Shown piece by piece: positions 176 through 20,777 of a DNA stretch of 20,949 bases. The position numbers and the translations under genes are program-made. The notes below the pieces were generated by a model that was given only the letters and a program-made list of their open reading frames with translations, was not told the origin of the DNA and did no database searches. The stretch is taken from IMG/VR virus record IMGVR_UViG_3300017706_002536, positions 1 through 20,949 of that record; one strand, 5' to 3'. Source of the DNA: a virus. Position 1 is the first letter of the stretch; each line of letters opens with the position of its first letter.

Positions 176-3100
176 ATGAAAGAACAAACATTCAGATCAC
201 CCGGATTTTTTGAGAGAGAAATCGACTTAAGTACACGTCAGACAGTAATTGAAGGTGTACCTGGTGGTGTTATTGGAACTGCAAGGGGAGGCCCGGCATT
301 TGTCCCAGTGACTGTCGGATCTTTTTCAGATTTCGAGTTTAAGTTTGGATCTTTAGATCCGGACAGGTTTGGCCCGTATGCGGCTGATGCTTTTTTACAA
401 CATAAAACAGCTTTGACTTATATCAGAGTTTTAGGTGCAGGTGGGAATAACACTGTACAGCATATTAATACAACACAAACTGCAGGAACTGTTCAAGGAG
501 CAGGATTTATCATAAAAGGCTCTAGATCTGAAGTATCATCTGAAAATAGATACCGAGGATCAGTTCAGTTTTTAGCTGCAACACACGAAGTACGTGCAGA
601 TACTGAAGTAGTAGGTTTTCCTATCTTTACTGATAATGATTCATTTGGTCTGACAGGTGTAACATCAAATGTAAATCTTGTTAGAGCAGCAATTTTTACA
701 ACAACAGCGTCTAGAATTGAAGTTTTAAATCATGATGCTTTCTATTCTGGTGTAACCACAGCAGACGATACTGCAACTATTAGTGAGTACACCGGTGTCG
801 ATACAGAAGGGACATTTAAGTTAGTTATATCTTCATCACAACCTAACTTTTCTAACGATGAAGGTTTTTCTGGTATTAAAATTGTAACAGCATCGCTAGA
901 TCCTTCTAGTGAGTTTTATGTAGAAAAAATACTAAATACAAGCTTAGATAGATTTGATGAAACGCAACATTTACTTTATCTGGATTTGCCGGTAGAATCA
1001 GAAATTGCAAAAGTAAAATATGACAACTCAAAGTATTCTGTTATTGTTTCTTCTGGTTCTGCAGAAACTAGTTCGAACAGCGGCCTTGCAAGTGAATTTA
1101 GAGATTTATTTGGTCGATTCGACACAAGGTATACAACTGCTAGAACAACTTCTTTCATATCACAACCGTATGGTTCAGAAGAATATGACTTGTTTCATTT
1201 TGAATCACTAGACGACGGTGAAATGGGCAACAAGAGATTTAAGGTTAGCATTGCGGACTTAAGAAGATCTACAAATGTTAAAGATCCTTATGGTACATTT
1301 TCAGTTTTAATCAGATCTTTAAATGATTCAGATACCGACATTAATATTCTGGAAAGATACTCTAAATGTAACCTTAATCCTGCTAGTGAAAATTATGTTG
1401 CTAATAAAATAGGCGACATGAAAGCAGTTTATAATTTTGACGCTGAGACTGAATCTGAACGTAGGCTAAACGTTACAGGTAAGATACCTAATAAGTCTTC
1501 TTACGTTAGGATTGTTATGAATGCAAACGTTACTGATAGACTAATTCCTAATTCAGCTTTACCATTTGGCTTTAGAGGCTTACCTGTTTTAAAGCTAAAT
1601 GACAATCTAACTGATGGGACTGACACTTTGTCTATGGGTGATAACAGATCAAGACTTTCCTATGTTGAAGGAGGAAAAACTCAGGTTGGCTCCGATATCG
1701 GATATTCTACGATGCCTCCTATTCCTTTTACTTTTAAGGCAACTAGAGGAAAGGTTGCTGCTTCTCCTTCGTTTACGGGTCAACCTGGATCACTAGAACT
1801 AGCTGATAGTAGAATATATTGGGGTGTAAAAACAAATAGACTTCCTTTTACTGGTAGTATTGCTGATGCAGCGCTTAATTCAAATAAGTCTGGAGGTTTT
1901 AACAGCTTAATAACCAGCTATTCAAAGCTTCTTGGTATAGAAAAACTAGATACACTGGTTACGGGATCAGGTGCTGATCACTTTAATAATAATAAGTTTA
2001 CATTAGCTCGAGTCGCTTTAAATAATCATGCAAATGCATCTGATAATTTAGAAACTGCATTATCAGTATTGACAGGTTCTAGTGCAGAACACATTAGAGA
2101 CGCTGCATATATTAGAAATGGTACGTTAACTAGTCCTAACTTTACAATTAATGATACAACTAGTGCAACAAGAAGAATTACGTTTGCTTCAATGGCAGCT
2201 TCAACAGATTATAAATATTTTAATAGATTTACAGATTATCTTAAATTTACCAACATTATGTATGGTGGCTTTGATGGATTAAATATTATTGATCGTGATT
2301 CGAGACTTATGAATGATAAAGCTAGTTCAAACGATACAGCTGCCGGTGGTAAAGCAGGAGGAGGTCAAATATCTTACGGGCCTCTAGATTCTTCTTACTC
2401 CCCTGGTCAAGGTGAAAATAACAATATTATTGCTTCTTACAGAACAGCAGCGAGAATTATAACAGATCCACTGGCTTCAAGAGTAAATGTTGTTGCTATT
2501 CCGGGAATCAGATCTAACTATGTAACAGATTATGCAGGAGAGTTAACTAGAGAGTATAGTAAAGCGATATACATTATGGACATTAATGCATATGATGATA
2601 ATGACAATTCTCTTTTTGATGATGCTGTAACTAGACCTAATGTTAGAAAAACAGTTGAAAAATTTGAAGGCAGGGCAATTGATAATAGTTACGTTGCAAC
2701 ATACTTTCCTGATGTTATTAAAAATGATAGAATTAATGGTGACGCAGTTAATATGCCGGCTTCAATTGCTGCCTTGGGCGCATTAGCTTATAACGATAAA
2801 GTTGCCTATCCATGGTTTGCACCTGCTGGTTTTAATAGAGGCGCTTTAAACAGTGTGATAAATACAGAAGTAAGACTAAATACTGAAGATAGAAATATTT
2901 TGTATGAAGCGCGTATTAATCCTATTGCAAATTTTCCAACGGGACCGTTTGTTATATTTGGACAAAAGACTTTGCAACAAGATAGATCTGCTTTGGATCG
3001 AGTTAATGTTAGAAGAATGCTTTTAGAAGTTAAACGAATTGTTTCGGAAGTTGCTAATAAAATCATATTTGAACAAAATACAAATAGCACACGTGCAAGA

Positions 3101-3310
3101 TTTATAGGTCAGGTAACACCTGCACTTTCAAATATTCAAGTGCAACAAGGTATCGATCAATTTAAGGTTGTTATGGATACAACTAACAATACACAGCTTG
3201 ATGTTGAACAGAATAGACTTAATGGAAGAATAGTTCTTGTGCCGACACGTGCAGTTGAATTTATTTCAATGGATTTCATTATTACTAATTCAGGTGTAAG
3301 TTTTGAGTAA
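176..3310 (+). CDS. 18: Contractile tail sheath protein, paralog 1 (gp18-like)
   Basis: This 1044-aa protein is a contractile-tail sheath subunit, which polymerises around the tail tube and shortens to drive the tube into the host. The N-terminus has the typical sheath opening: a PGFFEREID stretch, then GVIGTARGGPAFVPV and a GSFSDFEFKFG segment. Near residue 878 is the hallmark PWFAPAGFNRG motif, followed by the conserved C-terminal domain with NVRR and the final VEFISMDF beta strands. T4 gp18 is 659 aa, so about 350 residues are extra, probably as protrusion domains in the middle, where similarity to the second copy is patchier. The start is set by AGGAG at 165-169, six bases before ATG. The next gene is a clear paralog. 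Family assignment is strong; which copy dominates in virions is unknown. Confidence 0.92.
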   Translation: MKEQTFRSPGFFEREIDLSTRQTVIEGVPGGVIGTARGGPAFVPVTVGSFSDFEFKFGSLDPDRFGPYAADAFLQHKTALTYIRVLGAGGNNTVQHINTTQTAGTVQGAGFIIKGSRSEVSSENRYRGSVQFLAATHEVRADTEVVGFPIFTDNDSFGLTGVTSNVNLVRAAIFTTTASRIEVLNHDAFYSGVTTADDTATISEYTGVDTEGTFKLVISSSQPNFSNDEGFSGIKIVTASLDPSSEFYVEKILNTSLDRFDETQHLLYLDLPVESEIAKVKYDNSKYSVIVSSGSAETSSNSGLASEFRDLFGRFDTRYTTARTTSFISQPYGSEEYDLFHFESLDDGEMGNKRFKVSIADLRRSTNVKDPYGTFSVLIRSLNDSDTDINILERYSKCNLNPASENYVANKIGDMKAVYNFDAETESERRLNVTGKIPNKSSYVRIVMNANVTDRLIPNSALPFGFRGLPVLKLNDNLTDGTDTLSMGDNRSRLSYVEGGKTQVGSDIGYSTMPPIPFTFKATRGKVAASPSFTGQPGSLELADSRIYWGVKTNRLPFTGSIADAALNSNKSGGFNSLITSYSKLLGIEKLDTLVTGSGADHFNNNKFTLARVALNNHANASDNLETALSVLTGSSAEHIRDAAYIRNGTLTSPNFTINDTTSATRRITFASMAASTDYKYFNRFTDYLKFTNIMYGGFDGLNIIDRDSRLMNDKASSNDTAAGGKAGGGQISYGPLDSSYSPGQGENNNIIASYRTAARIITDPLASRVNVVAIPGIRSNYVTDYAGELTREYSKAIYIMDINAYDDNDNSLFDDAVTRPNVRKTVEKFEGRAIDNSYVATYFPDVIKNDRINGDAVNMPASIAALGALAYNDKVAYPWFAPAGFNRGALNSVINTEVRLNTEDRNILYEARINPIANFPTGPFVIFGQKTLQQDRSALDRVNVRRMLLEVKRIVSEVANKIIFEQNTNSTRARFIGQVTPALSNIQVQQGIDQFKVVMDTTNNTQLDVEQNRLNGRIVLVPTRAVEFISMDFIITNSGVSFE

Positions 3311-3344: not shown

Positions 3345-6320
3345 ATGGCAGAATTAACATTTAAATCAGCTGGTGTTAGTACAAGAGAAATCGACCTTTC
3401 AGGTCCTACACCACAAAGCCCTCAAGGGGTACCCGCAGGAGTTATTGGAACATCTGTCGAGGGACCTGCATATGTTCCGCTTACATTTGGATCTTTTACA
3501 GACTTTACGACAATATTCGGATTAACTGATGGTAAAAAGTTTGGACCTTTAGCAGTTAATGAATGGATGAAGTCTTCGAAGGCTGGTACGTTTATTCGAA
3601 TACTTGGAATTGGTGACGGTAAAAAAAGAGATGCTAGTACAGGGATTGTCACAAATGCAGGATTTGTCGTTGGAGAAGAAACTGTTCAGACGAATGGAAG
3701 GCTAGGCGTTAATCCGCACTCTAATGAAACAAACGGTGTTAAAGGTAGAACTTACTTTTTAGGCACGTACATGTCCGAGTCTAATGGTAGTACAATTTTT
3801 AGTGATGCTGGACTTCAAAATGTTGGTGAAAATAAGTCTAGACCAATTCTTCGGGGTGTGGTTCTAGCACCAAGTGGCGTTATACTTCATCTAAGTGGAA
3901 ACAACATGGCAGAACCAGATGCGCCTGGTATCACAGATACTGCCATAGCATCCGCAGGTAACTTAATGGGAAGAAAAGGTGGTTTAACCGGTTCTGTCGA
4001 CTTGTCTTCACAAGAATTTGTTATGTTAATGAATGGCTTTAAAGGGTCAGCATCAAAGCCCACGATCGTAACTGCTTCTTTCGATATGACATCACCTAAT
4101 TATTTTGCAAATGTTTTTAATAGAGATCCGCTCAAGATAGAAGAGAAAGGGCACTTGCTTTATGGTCATTATGATATTTACCCTTCCATGGCTAAAGTCA
4201 CAGGAAGTGGAGTAGTTACTGCAGGTTCAGAAATAGGCAACAAGCTAGATATCGGATTTTTATTAAGCGGGTCACAAGCTCACGGTGCAGCTTCAACTGT
4301 TGAGCATGTGGATTTTGAAGATTTTCAAGATAGATTTACACACGCTGAGTCTCCTTTTGTAACTTCACAAGGTTTTGACTCTCCTGGTGGATACGACTTG
4401 TTTAAGCTAGTAGCTCTAGACAGTGGTGAATCTGGTGGTCAAAAATATAAAATATCAATTGAAAATCTTGTCCCTAGTAATAATGATTATAGTAGATTTG
4501 ATGTTTTAATTAGAGAATTTAATGATACAGATGAAGAACGCAGAGTACTAGAATCACATAGAGGCGTAACATTAGATCCCGGTTCTGACAGATATATTGG
4601 AAGGTCAATAGGGGATCAGCATATTTTCTTTAATTTTGACAATGATACAGAATCTCAAAAAATAATAGTAGACGGTGTGCATCCTTCAAGATCAAGATAT
4701 GTAAGAGTTGAAATTTCTGATGTTGTTAAAAAGAAAGAAGTCCCTGTTGAAGCGCTTCCTTTCGGATATAGAGGACCTTCTCATCTTAACACATCTGGAT
4801 CTTTACTTTCAAATGAAGCTGATACATTATACGCCACGTCTATGCAAGTTCAGTCTGTTGTTGAACCTCCTTTTCCAAAAAGATCTAGAATTTCGACAGG
4901 CGTTGCACTTAATAAAACAATCAATACTAGACTTTATTGGGGAATGCAATCTGCGCAAGTTACTGATCCTGCAGATCCAAACAAAAGATCAGCTTTTAAT
5001 GAAACAATTAAAACTATTGGAAAACACTTTCCTAATCATAGGAAAACAGTTTCTCCTTTCACAGTAGGTAATAATGCAGGTGTCGCTGACTTAGCCGGCG
5101 GAACTGTTTTGGACAGTGATAAGTTTAACAACAATAGATTTAGTTTAGAAAAAATTAAAGTTATCACAGGCTCAGACACTTTGGCAGCACCATCCAAATG
5201 GATTGATGCTGTTTATGAAAGAAAAGGAAACATCGTTGCTGATGAAACAAACAAAACCAGAAAATTTAAAGCTGCCGACCTTGCTTCTGTTTCAAATAGA
5301 AAGTTTGCAAAATTTACATTACCAATGCAAGGTGGGTTTGATGGTACTAATATCTTTGATAAAGATAAGTACGAGTTGACAAACAACGCTGTTAAGCGTG
5401 AAATGGATGATGCAAATCAAGGCGAATTGTCTGGGCCAACAGTTACAGCTTATAGAAAAGCAGTAGATGTTATGGGCTCAAAATCAGATGCTGAGATACA
5501 ACTATTGGCAATCCCGGGTATGAGACATCCTTCAGTTGCAGATTACGCAATTTCAGCTGTAGAAAATAGATTTGATGCAATGTATATTATGGATATAGAA
5601 GAAAGAGATAATGTTAACAGCGTTATTACTTCTTCAGTACAAAATCCACATGTTTTATACACTGTTAATGATTTTAAAAATAGAGCTTTGGATTCTTCTT
5701 TTGCTGCTGCATATTTTCCCGACTTAACTGTTTTTGATCCTAATACTGGAGCACTAGTTCAGACACCACCTTCAGTTGCTGTATTAGGCGCATATGGAAA
5801 CAACGATGTTGTTGGTCATCCATGGACTGCTCCAGCCGGATTTTCTAGAGGTGCTTTAAGTGCTGTTGAAGCTTCTTCGGTTTTACTAAATAGAACAAAC
5901 TTAGATGATTTGTATGACGCAGATATCAATCCGATCACTGCATTTCCTGGTACCGGTATTACAGTATGGGGACAAAAAACATTACTCCAGAGCTCATCTG
6001 CATTGGACAGAATTAATGTTAGAAGGTTGCTTATTGATGTTCGTAGAAAAGTTAGAAATATTGCTAATACTTTACTGTTTGAGCCAAATCGTTCAGAGAC
6101 ATTAGAGAAGTTTGCTTCATTAGTAAACCCTATTTTGCAAAGAGTGCAAAATCAGTCAGGTGTTGATCGCTATAAGGTTGTAATTGATACTACTACTACT
6201 ACGCAGGCTGATGTTGAAAACAATACAATTAGAGGTAAAATATTCCTGCAACCAACAAGAACAGTAGAGTTTGTTGCTTTGGACTTTGTTGTTTCAAATG
6301 CAGGATCAGAACTTCTTTAA
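3345..6320 (+). CDS. 18: Contractile tail sheath protein, paralog 2 (gp18-like)
   Basis: A second, 991-aa tail sheath protein lies 34 bp after the first and is homologous to it along its length. The opening has the same layout (FKSAGVSTREIDLSG, GVPAGVIGTSVEGPAYVPLT, GSFTDFTTIFG). The middle shares blocks such as the PFGYRGP segment and a GGFDG-type segment. Near residue 824 it has the PWTAPAGFSRGALS motif, then NVRR and a C-terminal VEFVALDF strand. Both N- and C-terminal interlocking regions are intact, so neither copy looks like a pseudogene. GGAG at 3334-3337 sets the start. The two copies may be two sheath types in one tail, or one may be used at the baseplate or neck end. The sequence does not decide this. 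Confidence 0.92.
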   Translation: MAELTFKSAGVSTREIDLSGPTPQSPQGVPAGVIGTSVEGPAYVPLTFGSFTDFTTIFGLTDGKKFGPLAVNEWMKSSKAGTFIRILGIGDGKKRDASTGIVTNAGFVVGEETVQTNGRLGVNPHSNETNGVKGRTYFLGTYMSESNGSTIFSDAGLQNVGENKSRPILRGVVLAPSGVILHLSGNNMAEPDAPGITDTAIASAGNLMGRKGGLTGSVDLSSQEFVMLMNGFKGSASKPTIVTASFDMTSPNYFANVFNRDPLKIEEKGHLLYGHYDIYPSMAKVTGSGVVTAGSEIGNKLDIGFLLSGSQAHGAASTVEHVDFEDFQDRFTHAESPFVTSQGFDSPGGYDLFKLVALDSGESGGQKYKISIENLVPSNNDYSRFDVLIREFNDTDEERRVLESHRGVTLDPGSDRYIGRSIGDQHIFFNFDNDTESQKIIVDGVHPSRSRYVRVEISDVVKKKEVPVEALPFGYRGPSHLNTSGSLLSNEADTLYATSMQVQSVVEPPFPKRSRISTGVALNKTINTRLYWGMQSAQVTDPADPNKRSAFNETIKTIGKHFPNHRKTVSPFTVGNNAGVADLAGGTVLDSDKFNNNRFSLEKIKVITGSDTLAAPSKWIDAVYERKGNIVADETNKTRKFKAADLASVSNRKFAKFTLPMQGGFDGTNIFDKDKYELTNNAVKREMDDANQGELSGPTVTAYRKAVDVMGSKSDAEIQLLAIPGMRHPSVADYAISAVENRFDAMYIMDIEERDNVNSVITSSVQNPHVLYTVNDFKNRALDSSFAAAYFPDLTVFDPNTGALVQTPPSVAVLGAYGNNDVVGHPWTAPAGFSRGALSAVEASSVLLNRTNLDDLYDADINPITAFPGTGITVWGQKTLLQSSSALDRINVRRLLIDVRRKVRNIANTLLFEPNRSETLEKFASLVNPILQRVQNQSGVDRYKVVIDTTTTTQADVENNTIRGKIFLQPTRTVEFVALDFVVSNAGSELL

Positions 6321-10177: not shown

Positions 10178-13100
10178 TACTAGAGAAACATTAAAGCAAT
10201 TCCTTAACGCAAATACTAGCACACAAGGTAAAAACTCTATATCACTTTCTCACAACAAGTCTCCGGGTGACAATATAAAGCTAGATAATAAAGAAGATAT
10301 TAAAATAGATCCTGTCACAGGACAAAAGCTTTTAGACTTAGATACTCCAGGCAAAGGAATGCTAGGAGACTATTTAAACTTTTTAACAAAAGAATCCGAT
10401 CATATTTTTCCAATTAAAGAAGGAAATGAGTATTCCCCCAAATCAAACAGAGGCGATTATTTAGCAACGTCTTCTGATCACGGTGCAGAAAAAATATTTT
10501 TAATTCCTGGTACAGAAAATTCTAATAATTTTACACGATATTCTAATAGCCAGTTTCAAGAATTACACGATATAATAGATAAAATTGGTTTTGAAAATAA
10601 TGCAAATAAAGGTCATAAAGTATTAAGTAACATTGAAGGTACAGGTTTAAACTCTTATGGTGAAGTTTCTAATGAACTAGGCGTTTCTTACAAAACTGGT
10701 GATCAAAACCCGGTTACCCAAGCAGTCCAAAATGATGTCTTAGTTAATTCTAGATTTGGCAACATTCCTAATAAAGATGTATTTAAAGGTAAAAACGAAA
10801 CATTAGAAATATTTGAAAACAAAGATAATATAAAAATAAACAATACTTTTGGAAAATATTCAGATGTTAATGTCGATTCATTAATCAAACTAGAAAAACT
10901 TAAACATTTAGGAGCATCGTTACTGATGAAAACGTCAGGTTTTGGAACAGGTATTAACCCAGGACAGTCTTCTAATCCTGAAGATATTGAAAGTGCTTTT
11001 AGTAATAACGGAGAAAACACCGCCGGTGCCGGGAGCAGTTTACTAACCGGAACGGAAATAAAAATAGAAAATAGTTTGTTCAGATCAAAAAATGCTTTTG
11101 GTGGTCCAACTTCTGAAGGCACTGATGAAAGCATAAGATCGGGAAGAGGTGAATTCTTTGAAGATGATAGACTAAGTTACGGATCCACGTATAATCCAGC
11201 TTTGCATTTTAATGGCAAAAATCATAAAATACATAAATTACAAGCTGCGCTAGCTATAACATTAGTTAAAGAACTTGGAAAAGAATTATATAATAGTATT
11301 ATAAGAGAATATGTAACATCAGAAGCAGCAGCGTCAATTTCTCATGAAATTCAATCGTCTGTTACAAATCAAATGCAAATCCTTATGGGTTTTTCATCTC
11401 AGACCCAGGCCTTTGAAGACAATATAACTAAAATGGCAGAAGGATTGACTAATTTAAGATTACAAAATTTGACTAGTCAATTATTTACTCCTACAAGATA
11501 CGACTATTCATCGTGCATTAATAGAGGACTTAAAGTTCTTTTTGATGATGATATAGGTCTGGAAAAAACAATAGGAAGTTTAGGTAGTCTGACTCCTAAT
11601 TCTATACCAGAAATTAAAAAAATTAGAAATTCAATAGGTATCGGCTCTTCGCCAGGATACTGGTTATCAATAGCAAAAAGTGTATTAAAGTCTTCTAAAG
11701 ATATGTTAAGTAGCCTAGATTTATTAACCCAGTCTGAAGAAGGCGTGGACAGAATTCAAAATTTTATTGAATACTTAAATACTAACAGCGTTGTCAGATT
11801 TTTAAATGTGTTAGCAACTGTGGGTGACGCAAGTTTTCAAGCATTTTCCGGTGAATCTTTAGAAAATATTAACTATATAAATAGACCTAGAAATGTAGAT
11901 AGCATGCCGGATGGTCCAGGAACCAGAGTAGGAAAAAGCAAGAAAAAAGATGGATATACAGATAAACAATTAGCATGGTCACAAAATGATGTGCCCTCTG
12001 TATATCTCTTACCTTTGAATCCTCTTAGGGCATCTGGCAGGCTAGATAAGATAATTTCCGGTCCAAATCCATTCACAGCAATGTTAGGATCTAGACTAGC
12101 TGATCAAACATATTTTTCTAAAAATATGGATGGCTCGAATAATAGAATCCCTAAAGAAGTTGTAAAAAGATTAGAAAATATTTTAGATTCTGAGTATGTT
12201 CCTTTTTATTTTCATGATTTAAGAACAAATGAAATTATTTCTTTCCATGCTTTTTTAAATTCACTAACTGACACTATCAACCCGAATTTTAATGCACATT
12301 CCGGATATGGTAGACTTGATCCTGTTAGGCTTTACGAAGGAACAACTAGATCAATATCTGTAGGTTTTACTGTTGTTGCAACTTCGAAAGAAGACTTTGA
12401 TGCAATGTGGTATAAGATTAATAAATTTGTAACATTACTATATCCTCAGTGGACTAAAGGAACACTAGTTGGCTATGATTTAGAAGGAGACGTAACATCA
12501 AAATTTATTCAACCTAACTCTCAAGTATTAGGTGCTTCACCGATTGTAAGAATGAGAGTAGGTGATATAATTAAATCAAATTATTCTAAATTTAATTTAT
12601 CAAGAATGTTTGGTATCGGAGATAGTGATGTTAATCCTATTATAGCTAGTGATGCTGAAAGTGAAAAAGCTAGATCAGTTGCCAATTATATTAATAACAC
12701 AGGTAATGATATGCTAAATAAAATTAAAGATGTAAGTATATCATTAATATCACTAATTTACGGCTCGCTAGTCCAAGCATTTAACTTTGGTGGCGTAAAA
12801 GACTTTGCAGGAAAAAGCAATGGGCACAACAAATTAGTTAAGGCCGGAGCAGAAATATTAACAAATTTATTAGTTAACGGTCATGTTAATCCATTGATTT
12901 TAAATACAACGATAAAAAAACAAAAAAAGAATAATCCTGGAATTGAAGATGAAGAAAACCAGTTCGGACCAAATGAAGGTTTGACAATGTATCTTCGCAG
13001 TAATTATAATGAAGGTTATGAAATAATTAACGGAAACCTTCGTGGAAAAAGATTTTTAATTCAAAAACCTATAAAAGTCAAACTTAATAAAAAATCTGCA

Positions 13101-13776: not shown

Positions 13777-14082
13777 ATGTCTTTTTCTAGATATTCATTC
13801 ACCCCTAATATAAAAAACGATTTAGGCAAATCATTTAAAAGTACTAGCAAAACAAATGTTCGAATAAGAAATGCTATATTTAAAGGTCTAATCGACTTTA
13901 ACGTTCATACAATTCAAGAAGGCGAAAGATTAGACAGTCTATCTTATCTTTATTATGGAAGCTCAGAGTATTGGTGGATTATAGCAGCAGCAAGCGGCAT
14001 TGGTTGGTCTTTGCAAGTTCCACCTGGAACTATTTTGCAAATACCGGGTTCAGTCAACGAAGTTATAAGGTACGTAAGATAA
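13777..14082 (+). CDS. 53: LysM-like baseplate wedge protein (gp53-like)
   Basis: This 101-aa protein carries a LysM-like domain at residues 43-93: HTIQEGERLDSLSYLYYGSS, then EYWWIIAAASG and VPPGTILQIP. The dG-YG-WWiia-PG-l-iP pattern is shared by T4 gp53 and the P2 gpX family, which bind the baseplate near the wedge/hub interface. T4 gp53 is about 196 aa, so this is a short version. AAGGAG at 13764-13769 sets the start. The stop overlaps the next start (TAATG at 14080-14084), implying translational coupling with the hub gene. Confidence 0.78.
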   Translation: MSFSRYSFTPNIKNDLGKSFKSTSKTNVRIRNAIFKGLIDFNVHTIQEGERLDSLSYLYYGSSEYWWIIAAASGIGWSLQVPPGTILQIPGSVNEVIRYVR

Positions 14083-17000
14083 TGCCAGCAAATAAATCTA
14101 AGCGAAGCCCACAAGAAATGATGAGTACGATGATAGAAGCTGTTGATGAATTTGACGGGTTTATTATGGGTATAGGCGGGTCAAATAACTATTTTACTTT
14201 TAACGCTTCGGACGAAGAAAAAGAAAAATTTAGAATTAACAACTTGGACATATATAACAGAGAACCTCAAGAAGAAAAAGTTAAAGATTTAAACAAGTTA
14301 AGAGAACATACTGCAATAAGAAGATCTTTTTTCGCTTCGCTGTTAGATACAACTGTCGGCGCTTACTATACGCACGATATATTGCAAGGAAGTCATGTTT
14401 TATCTTCAAAAGGTTTAGAAAACTATGATTTAGACAGTCAGAAAATCGAAGATTATTTAAAAATACTTGCTGATACTAACGTTTCTGTCGCAGAAAAATC
14501 AGTACCTGCAACAGTCGTATTGAAAGAATCAAGCAATAAAGTTCCAGACCCTACAAAAGAAAAAAATAAATATGGATCAATGTCAAAAATGATTCAGGAA
14601 GGCACTAGCACATATAAAATAAAAGATGCTGTTTACGTCGGTTCAGAAGGTATAGTAGAAAATATGTCAGCTGAAGAAGAGATTCAAACATTGCAAGCTA
14701 TAGCTGAAACGCAAGGAGGCTCAAAAGAAGCTTACTTGTCAGACTTAGACTTAGAAACAAGAAACTTTTTTTTAGAAGAATTTGCATTTATTCCCGATAA
14801 CGAATCAGAATATGTTAACGAATCCGGAATGATATCAGAACCTAGTTTGTATGATAGGAAAATGTCGGCTTATATTATAAAAGATAACGAATTTATACAT
14901 GGTAATAAAAGAAAAGAATTCTTATCTTTATTTTTTAATGGAATTTCACCAATAGAATTAAGCAGATGTACACCTTATATTGAAATTTCATTTTACCACC
15001 AAAATTTCAATACAAATAAAGACAGTTATTTAGATCCGGCCGGATATATGAATTTTTATGCAGATATTGATCCGGCAACAGGCAAGATTGTTCCTTCAGG
15101 CTTTACAACTAAGACTTTACCAGTAGATGAAGAATATAAGAAGACAAATAACACTAAAACAGATATATCATACATGGATATGTTTACTTCACCTCAAACA
15201 ATGGTAAACGCAAATATTAATTCTGAACCGGGTGGGATTAATCCTAAAAAAATAAAGTCAAATCCATTTAACACAGCACTCGAACCTTTCGCACCCCAAG
15301 CTTCTTTAAGCAACCTGACTTTGACAACCACATCCGGCGGATACGGCTTTACTAGTGAAAAAAAGGGCAGTATGTCAATAATAATTCATGACAGAAGTAG
15401 GTTAAAGCAGTTTGCATCAATTATTGCTGTAAATCAGCTTGCAAAAACAAGAGCAAAAATAACTTTTGGGTGGAGCCATCCAGACGGAGACATTCAATCA
15501 GGAAACATAATTGGAAGATTTCTAGACTCAATGAAAAATTCACAACATTATACACTCACGTCTTCAAATATGAGATTTCAAGGAAACGCAGTAGAAGTAG
15601 ATATATCAATGTTTTCAATGGGTGACTATCATGTTCAAGATATGCCTGCTGCTGCAGGTTTAAACGTTCCTTTGCGTGTTATAGGACCAGCAATTAACAC
15701 AATAATCGAGTCTTTAGTTGAAAAAGCAAAATTAGCTTCCGGGATAATTGATTCCGAAAAGACAGGAAGAATACACCCGCAATTAGAACTTTTAATGTCT
15801 TCAGCCAATTCAACTGAAGCAATGGTCTCAGCGAAACAGTTTGGCGAATTAAACAGATTAATCAAATCAGATAATCAAGATACAAAGATTATTACTAAAA
15901 TTGCTAAAATTTTAGGAATTAGTGATTTAAGCGGTAATGATATTAAAATTGAAGACTTGATTGTAGCAATAGATTCTGAGTCTGTAGAAGAAAAAACCTC
16001 TACACCTGGAAATTCAGAAATAGCTAAAATTGTAAGTGATAATATTAAAAAGCAAACCGGTTTAATATTAAGAAGAAAATACGAACAATTGTTTTATTAT
16101 GATAAGTCTAATCAAACAATGTGGCAGCCTGATTACTTTACAGGAGAATGTTGTGTTAATAAAACCACACCGGCTGCAATTGCTGATGCTGATTTAAAAT
16201 TTTTTAAAAATAAAGAAACGGTTTCTTTGGGTAAATGTATCGCAAATTTTGTTGCTGCGCCTATGATATCTACAGGAGAGTATTCTGAAGTTCAAATATT
16301 TTTCTATCCTATTAATCAAGCTGCTGGTTATGCAAGAAGGTTTACAACTGCTTCTTTCCCAATTCAAAGATCAGAATTAGGAAAAATATTTGACGTTGAA
16401 AAAGACGAAAGAGACAATAAAAACCCAGAAGAAAAAGATGAATCGATTCAACTAGGGACAATAACATCAATTGGAATGTTTAATAAAATAGCGTCATTAT
16501 TACAAAGTTTTGATATATCAGCTTATGGATTGACAGAAATTTCATCTTCGTCGCAAAAAAGCACAGTAAGCGATATTCTTAAAAATAAAAATCACCCTAA
16601 GAAATCAGCAATTTTAGCAACTTATTATGCTAATTATAAAAACATAAAAGACCCTAAAAAAGTTAAAGCAGAATTTAACAAAGAAAAAAAAGAAAAAAAA
16701 GAAGAAATTTATAAAGCAGCAGTTTCTAATTACGTAAAAACATTAACAGAACAAAAAAAAGAATCGATACTATCAAAAATTTATTCTAATGATATTGATG
16801 TTGCGCCACAAGATAAAAACACTTTTAGATTTCCTGCCTTAAATATGACTTTCGAAGTTTTAACACCAATAAAGCCTCCAGCTTCTACTGATAACAATGG
16901 TTTTTGGAAATTTTTCTATGCAAAAGATGGTTATTATAAAAATGAAGAAACATCTAGCTACGGTGAAGGAAGAATATTAAGAATTCATGTAACAGATGAT

Positions 17001-17561
17001 GCAAATGTTGGCAGCAGCACAGTAGATTTAGCTTCACAAATTTTATTTAATGGTGCTAAAGACCCAGACAAAAATTCAGCTATAGCTAGTGTTATTGCAG
17101 AAGGTGTAAATAACTTATCTGACCAAGAATTAAAAGAATATATTAAGCGTCATTATGCAACAATAATATACGGATCCGGCAACTCTACAGTTAAAGGTGT
17201 TAATGTTTCTTCTACAACATCAGATAGAGTGGCTCAAGGAAAAATGATGACTTTTGAAAAAAATAGAAGATCAAAAAACATCAGTAAAAATATTAATATT
17301 ATGTCGGATGCAATTAGAATCGTTCCTGCTTCTGTAGATATACAAATGTTAGGATGTCCATTTCTAGAAAGAGGAAACCATATATTTTTAGATATGGGGA
17401 CAAATACAGATTTAGACAATTGTTATACAGTTAATTCAGTTACGCATACTATTAGTAAAAGTGAGTTTTCAACTAGTCTAGGATTAGTAATTTCAAATCA
17501 AGGTACTTTAATTAACACACGAGGAAACTTACTACAAAAAATTAAAAAAGCTGTAAAATAA
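14082..17561 (+). CDS. Giant baseplate hub protein (gp27/gpD-like)
   Basis: This 1159-aa protein begins at ATG 14082, sharing one base with the gp53-like stop; a longer reading from 13971 would run inside the LysM gene and is rejected. Two blocks identify the hub fold. Near residues 405-530 are SLSNLTLTTTSGGYGFTSEK, IIIHDRSRL and ITFGWSHPDGD. At the C-terminus is MLGCPFLERGNHIFLDMG, then TNTDLDNCYTVNSVTHTISK and a beta strand. These match hub domains of the gp27/VgrG/late-control-D type, which join the tube to the spike. T4 gp27 is 391 aa, so about 770 residues are extra, including helical segments and a Lys/Glu-rich linker (near 16660-16760) encoded by two A8 runs. No lysozyme or spike motif is seen. 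Confidence 0.7.
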   Translation: MPANKSKRSPQEMMSTMIEAVDEFDGFIMGIGGSNNYFTFNASDEEKEKFRINNLDIYNREPQEEKVKDLNKLREHTAIRRSFFASLLDTTVGAYYTHDILQGSHVLSSKGLENYDLDSQKIEDYLKILADTNVSVAEKSVPATVVLKESSNKVPDPTKEKNKYGSMSKMIQEGTSTYKIKDAVYVGSEGIVENMSAEEEIQTLQAIAETQGGSKEAYLSDLDLETRNFFLEEFAFIPDNESEYVNESGMISEPSLYDRKMSAYIIKDNEFIHGNKRKEFLSLFFNGISPIELSRCTPYIEISFYHQNFNTNKDSYLDPAGYMNFYADIDPATGKIVPSGFTTKTLPVDEEYKKTNNTKTDISYMDMFTSPQTMVNANINSEPGGINPKKIKSNPFNTALEPFAPQASLSNLTLTTTSGGYGFTSEKKGSMSIIIHDRSRLKQFASIIAVNQLAKTRAKITFGWSHPDGDIQSGNIIGRFLDSMKNSQHYTLTSSNMRFQGNAVEVDISMFSMGDYHVQDMPAAAGLNVPLRVIGPAINTIIESLVEKAKLASGIIDSEKTGRIHPQLELLMSSANSTEAMVSAKQFGELNRLIKSDNQDTKIITKIAKILGISDLSGNDIKIEDLIVAIDSESVEEKTSTPGNSEIAKIVSDNIKKQTGLILRRKYEQLFYYDKSNQTMWQPDYFTGECCVNKTTPAAIADADLKFFKNKETVSLGKCIANFVAAPMISTGEYSEVQIFFYPINQAAGYARRFTTASFPIQRSELGKIFDVEKDERDNKNPEEKDESIQLGTITSIGMFNKIASLLQSFDISAYGLTEISSSSQKSTVSDILKNKNHPKKSAILATYYANYKNIKDPKKVKAEFNKEKKEKKEEIYKAAVSNYVKTLTEQKKESILSKIYSNDIDVAPQDKNTFRFPALNMTFEVLTPIKPPASTDNNGFWKFFYAKDGYYKNEETSSYGEGRILRIHVTDDANVGSSTVDLASQILFNGAKDPDKNSAIASVIAEGVNNLSDQELKEYIKRHYATIIYGSGNSTVKGVNVSSTTSDRVAQGKMMTFEKNRRSKNISKNINIMSDAIRIVPASVDIQMLGCPFLERGNHIFLDMGTNTDLDNCYTVNSVTHTISKSEFSTSLGLVISNQGTLINTRGNLLQKIKKAVK

Positions 17562-17588
17562 TATTATTAAGTTTATACTTTATATACT

Positions 17589-18620
17589 ATGAATATTGTA
17601 ATTAAAGATAACTATAGCTTTTTTAAAGAGGCTCAATCACTTAAAGATTCTCCTTCACCTAGATTGTCTGTTCAAACAGTCAATATTATTCTTGGTGTGC
17701 TTAAAAAAGAAAAAATAAAATCAATTAACGAATACTTTGTAAATGTGTTTAATAGCATGAACGAAAATAAAATAGAATGGAGTATGTTCTTATCTGATAA
17801 TCGAAAAAAAGAATACGAAACATACTTAAAAAATAGATTATTCGAATCAAAACCTTTTTTAACAGAATACTTTTACACTTACTTTCCGGAAAGATTGTCT
17901 TTATTTAAAAAAATACACCCACTAGACATGTCTAACCCATCGATATACAAACACAGTAGTATCACCGGGAGGCTTTCTATTGAAAAAGGTGTAAACTACC
18001 TAACTATGAAAAAAAGTATCAGGAATGAACTTAAAAGCCCTTTTAAGGATCACAGGCTTTATGAATTAGACTTTAAAAGTTGTGAACCTAATCTTTATTG
18101 TAGAATGTTTGATTTGTTGCCTGAAGACGCAGATGACATATATGTGTATATTGCCAAAGAAATTAAAGAGTTAAACGTAGGCAGGGACAAACTTAAAAGA
18201 GTTATTCTTTCTATTCTTTATGGTGCCAACGAAAGGGCAGTAAGTAGATTTTCTGGAATCTCTAAAAAGAAAATAGAAAAAATAAAGTCGATACTTAAAG
18301 TTAATACATTTAAAAACAGACTTGAACAAGAGTTTTTACAACATGGCTATATTAAAAACATGTTTTCACGGCCAATTATAAACAATACGAATCTTGTTAA
18401 TTATTGGATTCAGTCATCAGCAGCAGACTATTGTTGCCTTGCTTTTAACAAATTTTTTAAAGAAAATAAAAATTATAAACTTCACGCTGTTATTCATGAT
18501 GCTGTAATATTCTCAATTCCAAATAACAGTATTGATAAACTGACATCGATTCATTCCCTTAATTATCAAAATTTGTCAATTCCAGTTAAGATAAATAAAG
18601 TTATGCCTCATAATTATTAG
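17589..18620 (+). CDS. Minimal family A DNA polymerase (Pol I-like), polymerase domain only
   Basis: This 343-aa protein has the family A polymerase motifs in order: TGRLS at 126-130; motif A at 161-170 with Asp161 and Glu166 (E. coli Asp705 and Glu710); the O-helix R199-K203-L207-Y211-G (E. coli R754, K758, F762, Y766); IQSSAAD at 274-280; and motif C IHDA at 302-305 (His303, Asp304). Both catalytic Asp residues are kept, so activity is plausible. E. coli Pol I is 928 aa. Here the 5' nuclease, the 3'-5' exonuclease and most of the thumb are absent. The motif C Glu is Ala and the Phe762 position is Leu. No Shine-Dalgarno is visible before ATG 17589. A separate exonuclease, as in phage RM378, may lie elsewhere in the genome. 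Confidence 0.85.
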   Translation: MNIVIKDNYSFFKEAQSLKDSPSPRLSVQTVNIILGVLKKEKIKSINEYFVNVFNSMNENKIEWSMFLSDNRKKEYETYLKNRLFESKPFLTEYFYTYFPERLSLFKKIHPLDMSNPSIYKHSSITGRLSIEKGVNYLTMKKSIRNELKSPFKDHRLYELDFKSCEPNLYCRMFDLLPEDADDIYVYIAKEIKELNVGRDKLKRVILSILYGANERAVSRFSGISKKKIEKIKSILKVNTFKNRLEQEFLQHGYIKNMFSRPIINNTNLVNYWIQSSAADYCCLAFNKFFKENKNYKLHAVIHDAVIFSIPNNSIDKLTSIHSLNYQNLSIPVKINKVMPHNY

Positions 18621-18621
18621 T

Positions 18622-19887
18622 ATGAAAAAAATAAAAGAAATAAACTTAAGTGTTGATACTAGTAGATATTCGTCTCCTTATGTAAAAAATAGACAAAATT
18701 ACTATTCTGGATATTCCGGAGGAATGATTGATTCTGCTGCATCAATAACAAATACACTAGATAACTCTAGAATATTTAGTAGTGATGAATTCGAAGAAGA
18801 ATCTGAAGAGGAGATTAATTTAATGCCGGAAAATATTTTAAATTGTAGAGTTAAAAATAAAAAAGGATATGCACTTAATGAAACGTTGAATGCACTCAAT
18901 GAAAATTGGGAAATTATGGATACAACAGCTAGCGCAATAAAGTATGGCGCAAGAGCATTAAAAGCTGCAGGAAAAAGTACAGTACTTTCAATTCCTTTTA
19001 TTGACGCAATTGCAGGCAGCATGATGTTAATATCTGGAATAGGTAGCTTTAAAAGTGTATCTGACTTAATAATAGAAAAAATTAGAGTACCTGAAAATAC
19101 ATTTGCTGAAGCAATGGCTAGTAACTCTGAATCTGCTTGGCAAGATATCATAAGTGTCGTCAGCAATTTAAGTGAAGAAGAACGACGGTCACTAGAAGAA
19201 AATTTTGAAGATCTTCTTCATAACTTAAAGACATTTATATCCACAGCATTTCAAGCATACGATTCAATATTTGCGTCAGCAGGCGCAGCCGGAGGTCCTT
19301 TAGGGCTATTTGCCTTAGAAGCCGGATCTAATTTTACAACTGCAATTACAGGTTTTATATCTGACACTGTCCCATGGGAAAGATTTGCTTTGGATATAAC
19401 AGGAAAATTTGCTGGAATGATTAATTCGATGTTTGATTATATACTTAAACAAAAAGAACAAGATGACACCGGAAAATTAAGTAAAGCCATCGATGACGGC
19501 GGTCCTGTTTTTCTTGCAATTTTAACTAATCCAGTACAATCAATTAGAAGACTTGGTGAATTTTATACTGCAATAGAAACAGGAAAATCACCAATAGAAG
19601 ATGTAACAAATGCTACATTTAATTCTGTAAAGTCAAAATTAACATCAGATAATATAGAATCAATTATTGATGCAGCAATAAAATCTCACATGTCAGAAAA
19701 CAATTACTATGGTATAGATGAATATGATGAAGAAGATGAAGGTGAAGAAATAGAAGAAATGGGATACACACTACCTTTAGGTGCTTCAAACAAATCTTTT
19801 GACAAAAAAGATGATCATCATGTTATTGCTGAAGAAATAAGAAAATTTCAAGAATGGCAATTAAAAACTTTAGGAAGAACAAAGTAA
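18622..19887 (+). CDS. Unknown 421-aa protein with hydrophobic segments
   Basis: I do not recognise this family. The ATG is one base after the polymerase stop, with no Shine-Dalgarno, suggesting coupled translation. Residues 1-50 are Tyr/Ser/Asn-rich, 54-64 are acidic, and 119-141 form a hydrophobic Ile/Met/Gly stretch. Residues 170-215 are helical. Residues 217-247 are Ala/Gly-rich and hydrophobic, 255-280 amphipathic. Residues 364-380 are very acidic (DEYDEEDEGEEIEE), followed by a charged C-terminal helix. The pattern fits a membrane-interacting or virion-internal protein, or a replication accessory factor next to the polymerase. None of these is shown by sequence. The downstream gene has its own promoter, so this is the last gene of the operon. 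Confidence 0.75.
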   Translation: MKKIKEINLSVDTSRYSSPYVKNRQNYYSGYSGGMIDSAASITNTLDNSRIFSSDEFEEESEEEINLMPENILNCRVKNKKGYALNETLNALNENWEIMDTTASAIKYGARALKAAGKSTVLSIPFIDAIAGSMMLISGIGSFKSVSDLIIEKIRVPENTFAEAMASNSESAWQDIISVVSNLSEEERRSLEENFEDLLHNLKTFISTAFQAYDSIFASAGAAGGPLGLFALEAGSNFTTAITGFISDTVPWERFALDITGKFAGMINSMFDYILKQKEQDDTGKLSKAIDDGGPVFLAILTNPVQSIRRLGEFYTAIETGKSPIEDVTNATFNSVKSKLTSDNIESIIDAAIKSHMSENNYYGIDEYDEEDEGEEIEEMGYTLPLGASNKSFDKKDDHHVIAEEIRKFQEWQLKTLGRTK

Positions 19888-20009: not shown

Positions 20010-20777
20010 ATGGCTATCGATTTTGATGCTATTAAACGTAAACTTGACCGCCTTAGCGGTAATAATTCTAGTAGAAATACAATGTGGAAGCCTACTGAAG
20101 GTGAAAAGCATTCTGTCCGACTGCTTTCTTTTCCAGACAATGACGGGCAACCCTTTAAGGAATTAATGTTTTATTACAATATTCCTGGACAGCGAGGCTT
20201 GCTAGCGCCAAGCCAATTTGGTAAACGAGATCCCATCCAAGAACTTATTAATAAGCTTCGAGATGAAGGAACTAAGGAATCATATGAAATGGCAAAAAAG
20301 CTTTATCCTAAAATGAGAGTTTATGCTGCATGTATTGTTCGCGGTGAAGAATCAGAAGGTGTTAAGCTTTGGGGTTTTGGAAAAACAGTATATCAAAAAC
20401 TTCTTGCTTTGATGCTAGATGAAGACTATGGCGATATCACTGATCCGCTTGAAGGTCGTGATATTAATGTTGTTTGTTCTAAAAATCCTGGGCAGCAATG
20501 GGCAATGACTGAAGTTACACCGCGTGGTAAACAAACAAAATTGTCAAAAGATGCTAAACAGGCAAAAGAATGGATGACTGGCCTTCCGGACACTGATAAC
20601 ATTTTCCAGCTTAAGTCATACGATGAATTGTCAAAAATCATTAATGATTGGTTAGCAGGTGATGATGAAGGCGATGAAGACACAGGTACAGAAAGAAATA
20701 CATCAAGTAAAAAGGAAGAAAAGCCAAAAGGTGAGTACTCTAGTTTAGATGATGCTTTTGCTGACTTGATGGAATAA
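20010..20777 (+). CDS. 32: Single-stranded DNA-binding protein (gp32-like)
   Basis: This 255-aa protein has the gp32 layout. A basic N-terminal KRKLDRLSG at 9-17 resembles the cooperative LAST region. An OB-fold core follows, with a W/Y/F-rich binding face including MWKPTEGEKHSVRLLSFPD, LMFYYNIPG and GVKLWGFGKTVYQKLL. The tail from residue 219 is acidic and Ser/Lys-rich and ends SLDDAFADLME, the likely partner-binding hook. T4 gp32 is 301 aa and binds zinc; only two Cys are visible here, with no zinc cluster. It would coat ssDNA in replication and recombination, next to the polymerase and the putative recombinase. AGGAG at 19999-20003 sets the start. It has its own promoter and terminator. 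Confidence 0.82.
   Translation: MAIDFDAIKRKLDRLSGNNSSRNTMWKPTEGEKHSVRLLSFPDNDGQPFKELMFYYNIPGQRGLLAPSQFGKRDPIQELINKLRDEGTKESYEMAKKLYPKMRVYAACIVRGEESEGVKLWGFGKTVYQKLLALMLDEDYGDITDPLEGRDINVVCSKNPGQQWAMTEVTPRGKQTKLSKDAKQAKEWMTGLPDTDNIFQLKSYDELSKIINDWLAGDDEGDEDTGTERNTSSKKEEKPKGEYSSLDDAFADLME

Follow-up and report, generated by a model that had tools for sequence, protein, structure and literature searches.

A compact, exonuclease-less family A DNA polymerase of uncultivated marine phages with a putative gap-filling role

The polymerase gene and its surroundings

The window, by which we mean the whole stretch of DNA analyzed, is a virus record of 20,949 bp, and questions about the larger genome were put to its relatives. 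Two consecutive and very large tail sheath genes lie at 176-3310 and 3345-6320 (1044 and 991 aa), and both match the sheath C-terminal family. The gene at the end of the tail block was assigned as a hub from synteny and from the original prediction; no strong family match was obtained for it here. Directly behind it lies the gene of interest, which encodes a 343-aa protein (Table 1). The gap between the two genes, previously given as 28 bp, was found to be 27 bases, while the next ORF does begin one base past the polymerase stop, at 18622, as had been claimed. The intervening bases (17562-17588) are A+T rich, and no Shine-Dalgarno sequence can be seen ahead of the polymerase gene, which would suit Bacteroidota-type hosts.

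Profile searches of the 343-aa protein indicated membership of family A. Pfam DNA_pol_A matched residues 121-336 (profile positions 113-372 of 381, E = 6e-14) with a score of 52.2 bits, above the curated cut-off of 34.3, and PHROG_17 (“DNA polymerase”) also matched (E = 5e-18). In a profile alignment, residues 120-342 paired with residues 659-923 of E. coli Pol I. We take R128, D161, E166 and R199 to be the equivalents of R668, D705, E710 and R754 of the E. coli enzyme, and K203, Q275 and D304 to be those of K758, Q849 and D882, with L207 at position 762. The original prediction that the core polymerase motifs and both catalytic aspartates are present within 343 aa was confirmed by the DNA_pol_A match and by D161 and D304, and Q275 is also present among these motifs. 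In motif C the usual Glu of HDE is replaced (IHDA). Approximately 117 residues lie ahead of the TGR motif region and palm. No exonuclease family was matched by the protein in the Pfam profile search, and it does not have the 5' nuclease and 3'-5' exonuclease that canonical DNA polymerase I combines in one chain.

The AlphaFold2 model of the protein (pLDDT 91, pTM 0.88) had the Bst and Klenow Pol I structures as its best PDB matches (Foldseek, E 7e-13 to Bst Pol I). Alignments of the model with Pol I structures in VIA-align had Z scores of approximately 21 and an rmsd of 3.0 Å over 252-255 residues; for Klenow, residues 445-926 aligned to model residues 34-340 (255 residues, Z 20.7, rmsd 3.0 Å). 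Both programs supported a palm and fingers fold, whose absence from a prediction of the polymerase alone had been named beforehand as evidence against a polymerase. Based on the extent of the Klenow alignment, the 3'-5' exonuclease domain is absent and the thumb short, in agreement with the earlier remark that the protein has no exonuclease and little thumb. The thumb assignment of residues 34-117 was drawn from the fold alignment. The ORF is thus a real and full-length family A polymerase gene whose product lacks an exonuclease, and DNA polymerase activity is predicted for the 343-aa protein.

Table 1. Features of the polymerase locus in the window.
Feature	Position	Strand	Basis
Baseplate hub-type gene, ~1159 aa, end of tail block	14082..17561	+	ORF; homolog L002 6489-9983
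Compact family A DNA polymerase (predicted), 343 aa	17589..18620, stop included	+	ORF (ATG to stop), Pfam, PHROG, AlphaFold2
Helical part before palm, putative reduced thumb, residues 34-117	17688..17939, approximate	+	AlphaFold2 secondary structure, Klenow alignment
TGR motif, residues 126-128	17964..17972	+	R128 in 80/80 relatives
Motif A ELDFKSCEP, residues 159-167, catalytic D161, steric-gate E166	18063..18089	+	80/80 relatives
Motif B, residues 199-212: R199, K203, L207, Y211-G212	18183..18224	+	R, K in 80/80 relatives
Motif C IHDA, residues 302-305, H303, catalytic D304	18492..18503	+	D304 in 80/80 relatives
421-aa neighbor, modular, not conserved as a whole	18622..19887	+	Relatives compared
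gp32-like ssDNA-binding protein, opens the replication module	20010..20777	+	Pfam gp32 3e-10, PHROG_1192 2e-21

The 421-aa protein encoded behind the polymerase had been proposed as its partner, and a Pfam search assigned it to no family. Its residues ~110-320 are missing in many relatives, which have forms of 164-167 aa at this place, and a protein that matches this part is found after gp32 in L089 and L277. As a modular protein whose middle is absent from many relatives, it was ruled out as a general partner.

Relatives of the polymerase and the replicases they encode

Relatives were gathered by scans with UvsX and a 31-sequence polymerase alignment, and the locus was traced across more than 100 environmental contigs, the relatives' contigs being metagenomic. 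There were 80 distinct full-length relatives of 332-412 aa, referred to here as clade A. The nearest of these (L002, L003 and L016) were 52-53% identical over the full length, with L002 located within a 136-kb contig, G001. The distant relative L017 (401 aa, 25-28% identity) had an unchanged gene order; a small gene directly behind its polymerase (5372-5953) had a weak HD-domain match (0.0018) that was below the cut-off. Direct searches were also carried out: phmmer of the window protein against PDB sequences found no significant polymerase, the 50,697 phage records searched by tblastn gave no match to it or to the L086 member and weak Pol I matches only for the L096 member, and 84,980 bacterial and archaeal species genomes gave one weak match.

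Seven residues (R128, D161, E166, R199, K203, Q275 and D304) were invariant in all 80 relatives. The residue after the HD of motif C was A in 47, S in 17, D in 12 and G in 4, and never E, and position 762 was L in 56, I in 23 and M in one. Since the Glu of motif C is missing throughout the family, activity may be reduced. The dN/dS values of close pairs (0.035-0.18) indicated purifying selection. With full-length relatives at 52-53% identity and 80 members under such selection, the window polymerase is evidently not a chance ORF. Signs of decay, which the original prediction had listed as a point against it, were not seen in these data, and a decayed gene or fragment was ruled out by the 80 full-length relatives, the invariant catalytic residues and the dN/dS values.

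The gene order in clade A is tail hub, small polymerase, at least one variable gene, gp32, UvsX, 5'-3' nuclease, gp41 helicase and RNR. Of the clade A loci that extend 7 kb or more upstream of uvsX, all 40 had the small polymerase gene, which ended 1.1-5.2 kb before uvsX. The gene had been described as attached to a tail operon, which is correct in that it directly follows the hub gene, but in the relatives it lies where the tail genes meet a conserved replication module. In the divergent L275 UvsX is unusually long (555 aa, at 11795), and in L298 it is in two pieces (600 aa at 13067 and 328 aa at 14873), suggesting inserted elements. Besides the 5' nuclease of the replication module, G009 (55268-56065) and G005 (103433-104233) have a further 5'-3' nuclease-like gene (~265 aa), which matches the enzyme of RM378.

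The capsid, portal, terminase and sheath of the relatives match those of the Far-T4 phage RM378, and the window lineage is one of uncultivated marine Far-T4-like phages. Phages of the Far-T4 group are frequent in water, and those from the sea have been linked to Bacteroidetes hosts (PMC4360716, PMC7198788).

A DnaE-type DNA polymerase III alpha (PF07733, E ~1e-55) was identified in seven of the twelve large clade A contigs, and these are precisely the contigs (7/7) that extend 47 kb or more beyond the small polymerase. It was located 19-35 kb downstream, on the same strand, and the five large contigs without DnaE stop 6-31.6 kb downstream. The four DnaE proteins examined were full-length, at 1170-1179 aa, with a PDIDSD motif, and that of G009 had PHP, palm, finger and HHH domains. 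In G027 (the contig of L275; 1497-16607, minus strand) and G028 (the contig of L289; 24965-25099), DnaE appears to be split among several separate reading frames that correspond to consecutive stretches of the profile, a possible sign of inteins, introns or homing endonuclease insertions in the replicase gene. No family B polymerase (DNA_pol_B) was found among the twelve large contigs, and a T4 clamp, clamp loader or PolB was not matched in eight clade A contigs.

G001 contained no other family A polymerase, no family B polymerase and no Pol A-type or RNase_T-type exonuclease, and it ends 8.7 kb downstream of the small polymerase gene. The missing DnaE is best explained by truncation of this contig, because of the 49 genes in the DnaE region of G009 one is shared by G001, versus 46 of the 65 genes in the tail and head region. 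A regular DNA polymerase accompanies the small polymerase in all seven long relatives, and, the window record itself being 20.9 kb, we infer that the window phage has its own DnaE.

The original prediction had also suggested searching for a separate 3'-5' exonuclease. In the relatives, RNase_T-type exonucleases were present in some contigs and were not constant. DnaQ-like enzymes of ~200 aa were found in G009 (4438-5043) and G007 (178054-178632), and weakly matched ones of ~309 aa in G003 (39131-40060), G005 (22386-23315) and G006 (81038-81964); these two kinds are possible proofreaders for DnaE or for the small polymerase. None was found in G001, G008, G011 or G014-G017, and DNA_pol_A_exo1 had no convincing match in the relatives. 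Although some contigs are incomplete, a proofreading subunit in trans was rejected as a constant partner.

Comparison with divPolA1 and other polymerases

An extra PolA, divPolA1, has been described in 14 phages beside a regular DNA polymerase of family A, B or C (Yutin 2024, PMC11348598). Its thumb is truncated, its exonuclease is inactivated, replication genes lie downstream, and its role was left open; QQO91919.1 of Flavobacterium phage immuto_3-5A is an example (PMC11348598). In the literature we found divPolA1 only in that paper and its preprint. The window protein resembles divPolA1 in being a probably accessory PolA with a truncated thumb and without a working exonuclease, and, together with its relatives, in a locus order of gp32, RecA/UvsX, 5'-3' nuclease, DnaB/gp41 and RNR.

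A sister clade to clade A was recognized in Mel-JY01, a cultured phage of Microcystis, and in numerous environmental contigs; these share the module and encode a full PolB of 759-848 aa downstream of gp41. Clamp-loader genes are present in Mel-JY01, and no DnaE was found in contigs of the Mel-JY01 type. The homolog at the polymerase locus is 408-444 aa, with His at the E710 equivalent, Tyr at H881 and mostly Tyr at R754, both catalytic Asp being kept. Its model aligned from residue 1 to Bst 301-876 (~390 residues, rmsd ~3.2, Z ~25), and the protein is predicted to retain an exonuclease-like N-domain. The locus of Flavobacterium phage immuto consists of divPolA1 (441 aa), two small genes, SSB, RecA, 5'-3' nuclease, DnaB and RNR, with a regular PolA of 777 aa at 37.9 kb, and its divPolA1 falls in the sister clade (HMM E 3e-99). 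The profiles of the two clades aligned over 303 columns (hhalign, 99% probability, E 3e-18), indicating homology; the relation is distant, as the clade A HMM gave no direct match to immuto divPolA1. The UvsX tree parted the two clades with supports of 0.84 and 0.93, DnaE being confined to one and PolB to the other. The pairing of DnaE with an intact site and PolB with an altered site goes back to one split in the UvsX tree, a single evolutionary event without replication.

The window protein differs from the described divPolA1 in having not even a vestige of the inactivated exonuclease domain. In addition, clade A proteins are shorter than Mel-JY01/immuto-type members and have E710, R754 and H881 where the latter have E710H, H881Y and mostly R754Y. 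These comparisons make the window protein a sister form of divPolA1 that is short and has a canonical site, set apart from the Mel-JY01/immuto-type members. The marine GOV-bin members of divPolA1 could be closer and may already include the short form. The divPolA2 of barbaviruses is likewise an accessory, exonuclease-less phage PolA, but is set apart by its description, which gives an unrelated N-terminal domain and a variable gene neighborhood (PMC11348598).

Compared to bacterial DNA polymerase I (Klenow, Bst, Taq), the window protein shares the palm, the fingers and motifs A, B and C, but is without the 5' nuclease and the 3'-5' exonuclease and has a short thumb, and clade A has HD[ASDG] rather than HDE in motif C and, with one exception, L or I at position 762. 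RM378 had been cited as a phage that splits its family A polymerase. This proved mistaken: Pfam places its 522-aa polymerase in family B (DNA_pol_B, 2e-33) and the separately encoded exonuclease in DNA_pol_B_exo1, and its genome gave no DNA_pol_A match. As the window protein is of family A, RM378 was ruled out as a model for it.

Proposed role of the small polymerase

Family, fold, intact site, selection, conserved neighborhood, and the presence of DnaE and absence of PolB in relatives were all computed, and the gene neighborhood points to gap filling. With moderate confidence, we interpret the window protein as a probably active, accessory, Pol I-like gap-filler, an exonuclease-free and canonical-site sister of divPolA1 in a phage whose genome is copied by its DnaE. 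The phage's own DnaE (family C) would most likely copy the genome, the stand-alone 5'-3' nuclease encoded a few genes off would remove primers at Okazaki fragments, and the small polymerase would fill the resulting gaps, possibly also at UvsX/gp32 recombination intermediates. The bacterial pair in which Pol III copies and Pol I finishes would thereby be rebuilt, with Pol I split into 5' nuclease and polymerase genes. In bacteria, Pol I fills Okazaki gaps with its own 5' nuclease domain, and a stand-alone 5' nuclease nearly always accompanies the absence of canonical Pol I (PMC12926913).

A PolA homolog at the corresponding locus is also found in phages with PolB (Mel-JY01-like) or with a 777-aa PolA (immuto). 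As the locus is constant while the main polymerase varies among families A, B and C, the small polymerase does not look like a replicase, and its locus appears to go with the 5' nuclease and gp32 module rather than with one replicase. Of the two functions originally suggested, specialized gap filling fits better. The other, that of a sole replicative polymerase working with a partner in trans, is highly improbable: neither the window nor G001 shows a further polymerase, but G001 stops short, every far-reaching relative encodes DnaE, the eight contigs searched gave no T4-like clamp or clamp loader, and the proposed partner is not conserved.

The main rival to gap filling is recombination-linked synthesis or damage bypass, in which the enzyme would extend UvsX and gp32 D-loops or copy past lesions instead of maturing Okazaki fragments. 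Adjoining gp32 and UvsX genes, the lack of a proofreading domain and the accessory status are consistent with this, but the 5' nuclease and gp41 helicase are equally constant neighbors and Leu762 does not suggest an error-prone enzyme, so that we regard it as unlikely, if a serious contender. For Taq, Leu at this position is reported to give slower, more accurate synthesis (work cited in PMC6302109). In virioplankton, Leu762 has been tied to SNF2- and UvrD-type helicases and to no RNR (PMC6302109), a pattern from which clade A departs in having a DnaB-type helicase and RNR.

A function in making or extending primers, whether in the handover from primase to DnaE or as an RNA polymerase, has some basis in the adjoining helicase and replication genes, the altered motif C and the loss of the steric-gate Glu in the sister clade; an RNA polymerase role was considered for divPolA2 (PMC11348598). 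That Glu is kept, however, in all 80 clade A proteins, and G001 has a DnaG-like primase, making such a function doubtful in the extreme. Retention of the dNTP-selecting E710 equivalent favors DNA rather than RNA synthesis. Lastly, the position directly after the tail genes, with the hub gene 27 bases away, could be read as that of a tail or virion-associated protein that has lost its enzymatic role, but with catalytic residues all invariant, a complete palm and fingers fold and a replication module downstream, we give this almost no credence.

Returning to gap filling, we tentatively suggest a broader reading, which we hold with rather less confidence: a large, uncultivated T4-like marine lineage may have a bacterial-style division of labor, with DnaE and a split Pol I whose polymerase half would rank among the shortest family A polymerases in nature, and in a sister lineage with PolB or another PolA as replicase the small polymerase may have changed its active site, keeping just a modified role. 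To divPolA1, known from 14 phage genomes, a short form with a near-canonical site and in company with DnaE is added here. Together with the changed site of the sister form found with PolB, it leads to a testable idea, that the small polymerase finishes the DNA in the wake of the replicase, like Pol I in bacteria. The 332-412-aa proteins would also be compact starting points for examining the minimal needs of a family A polymerase.
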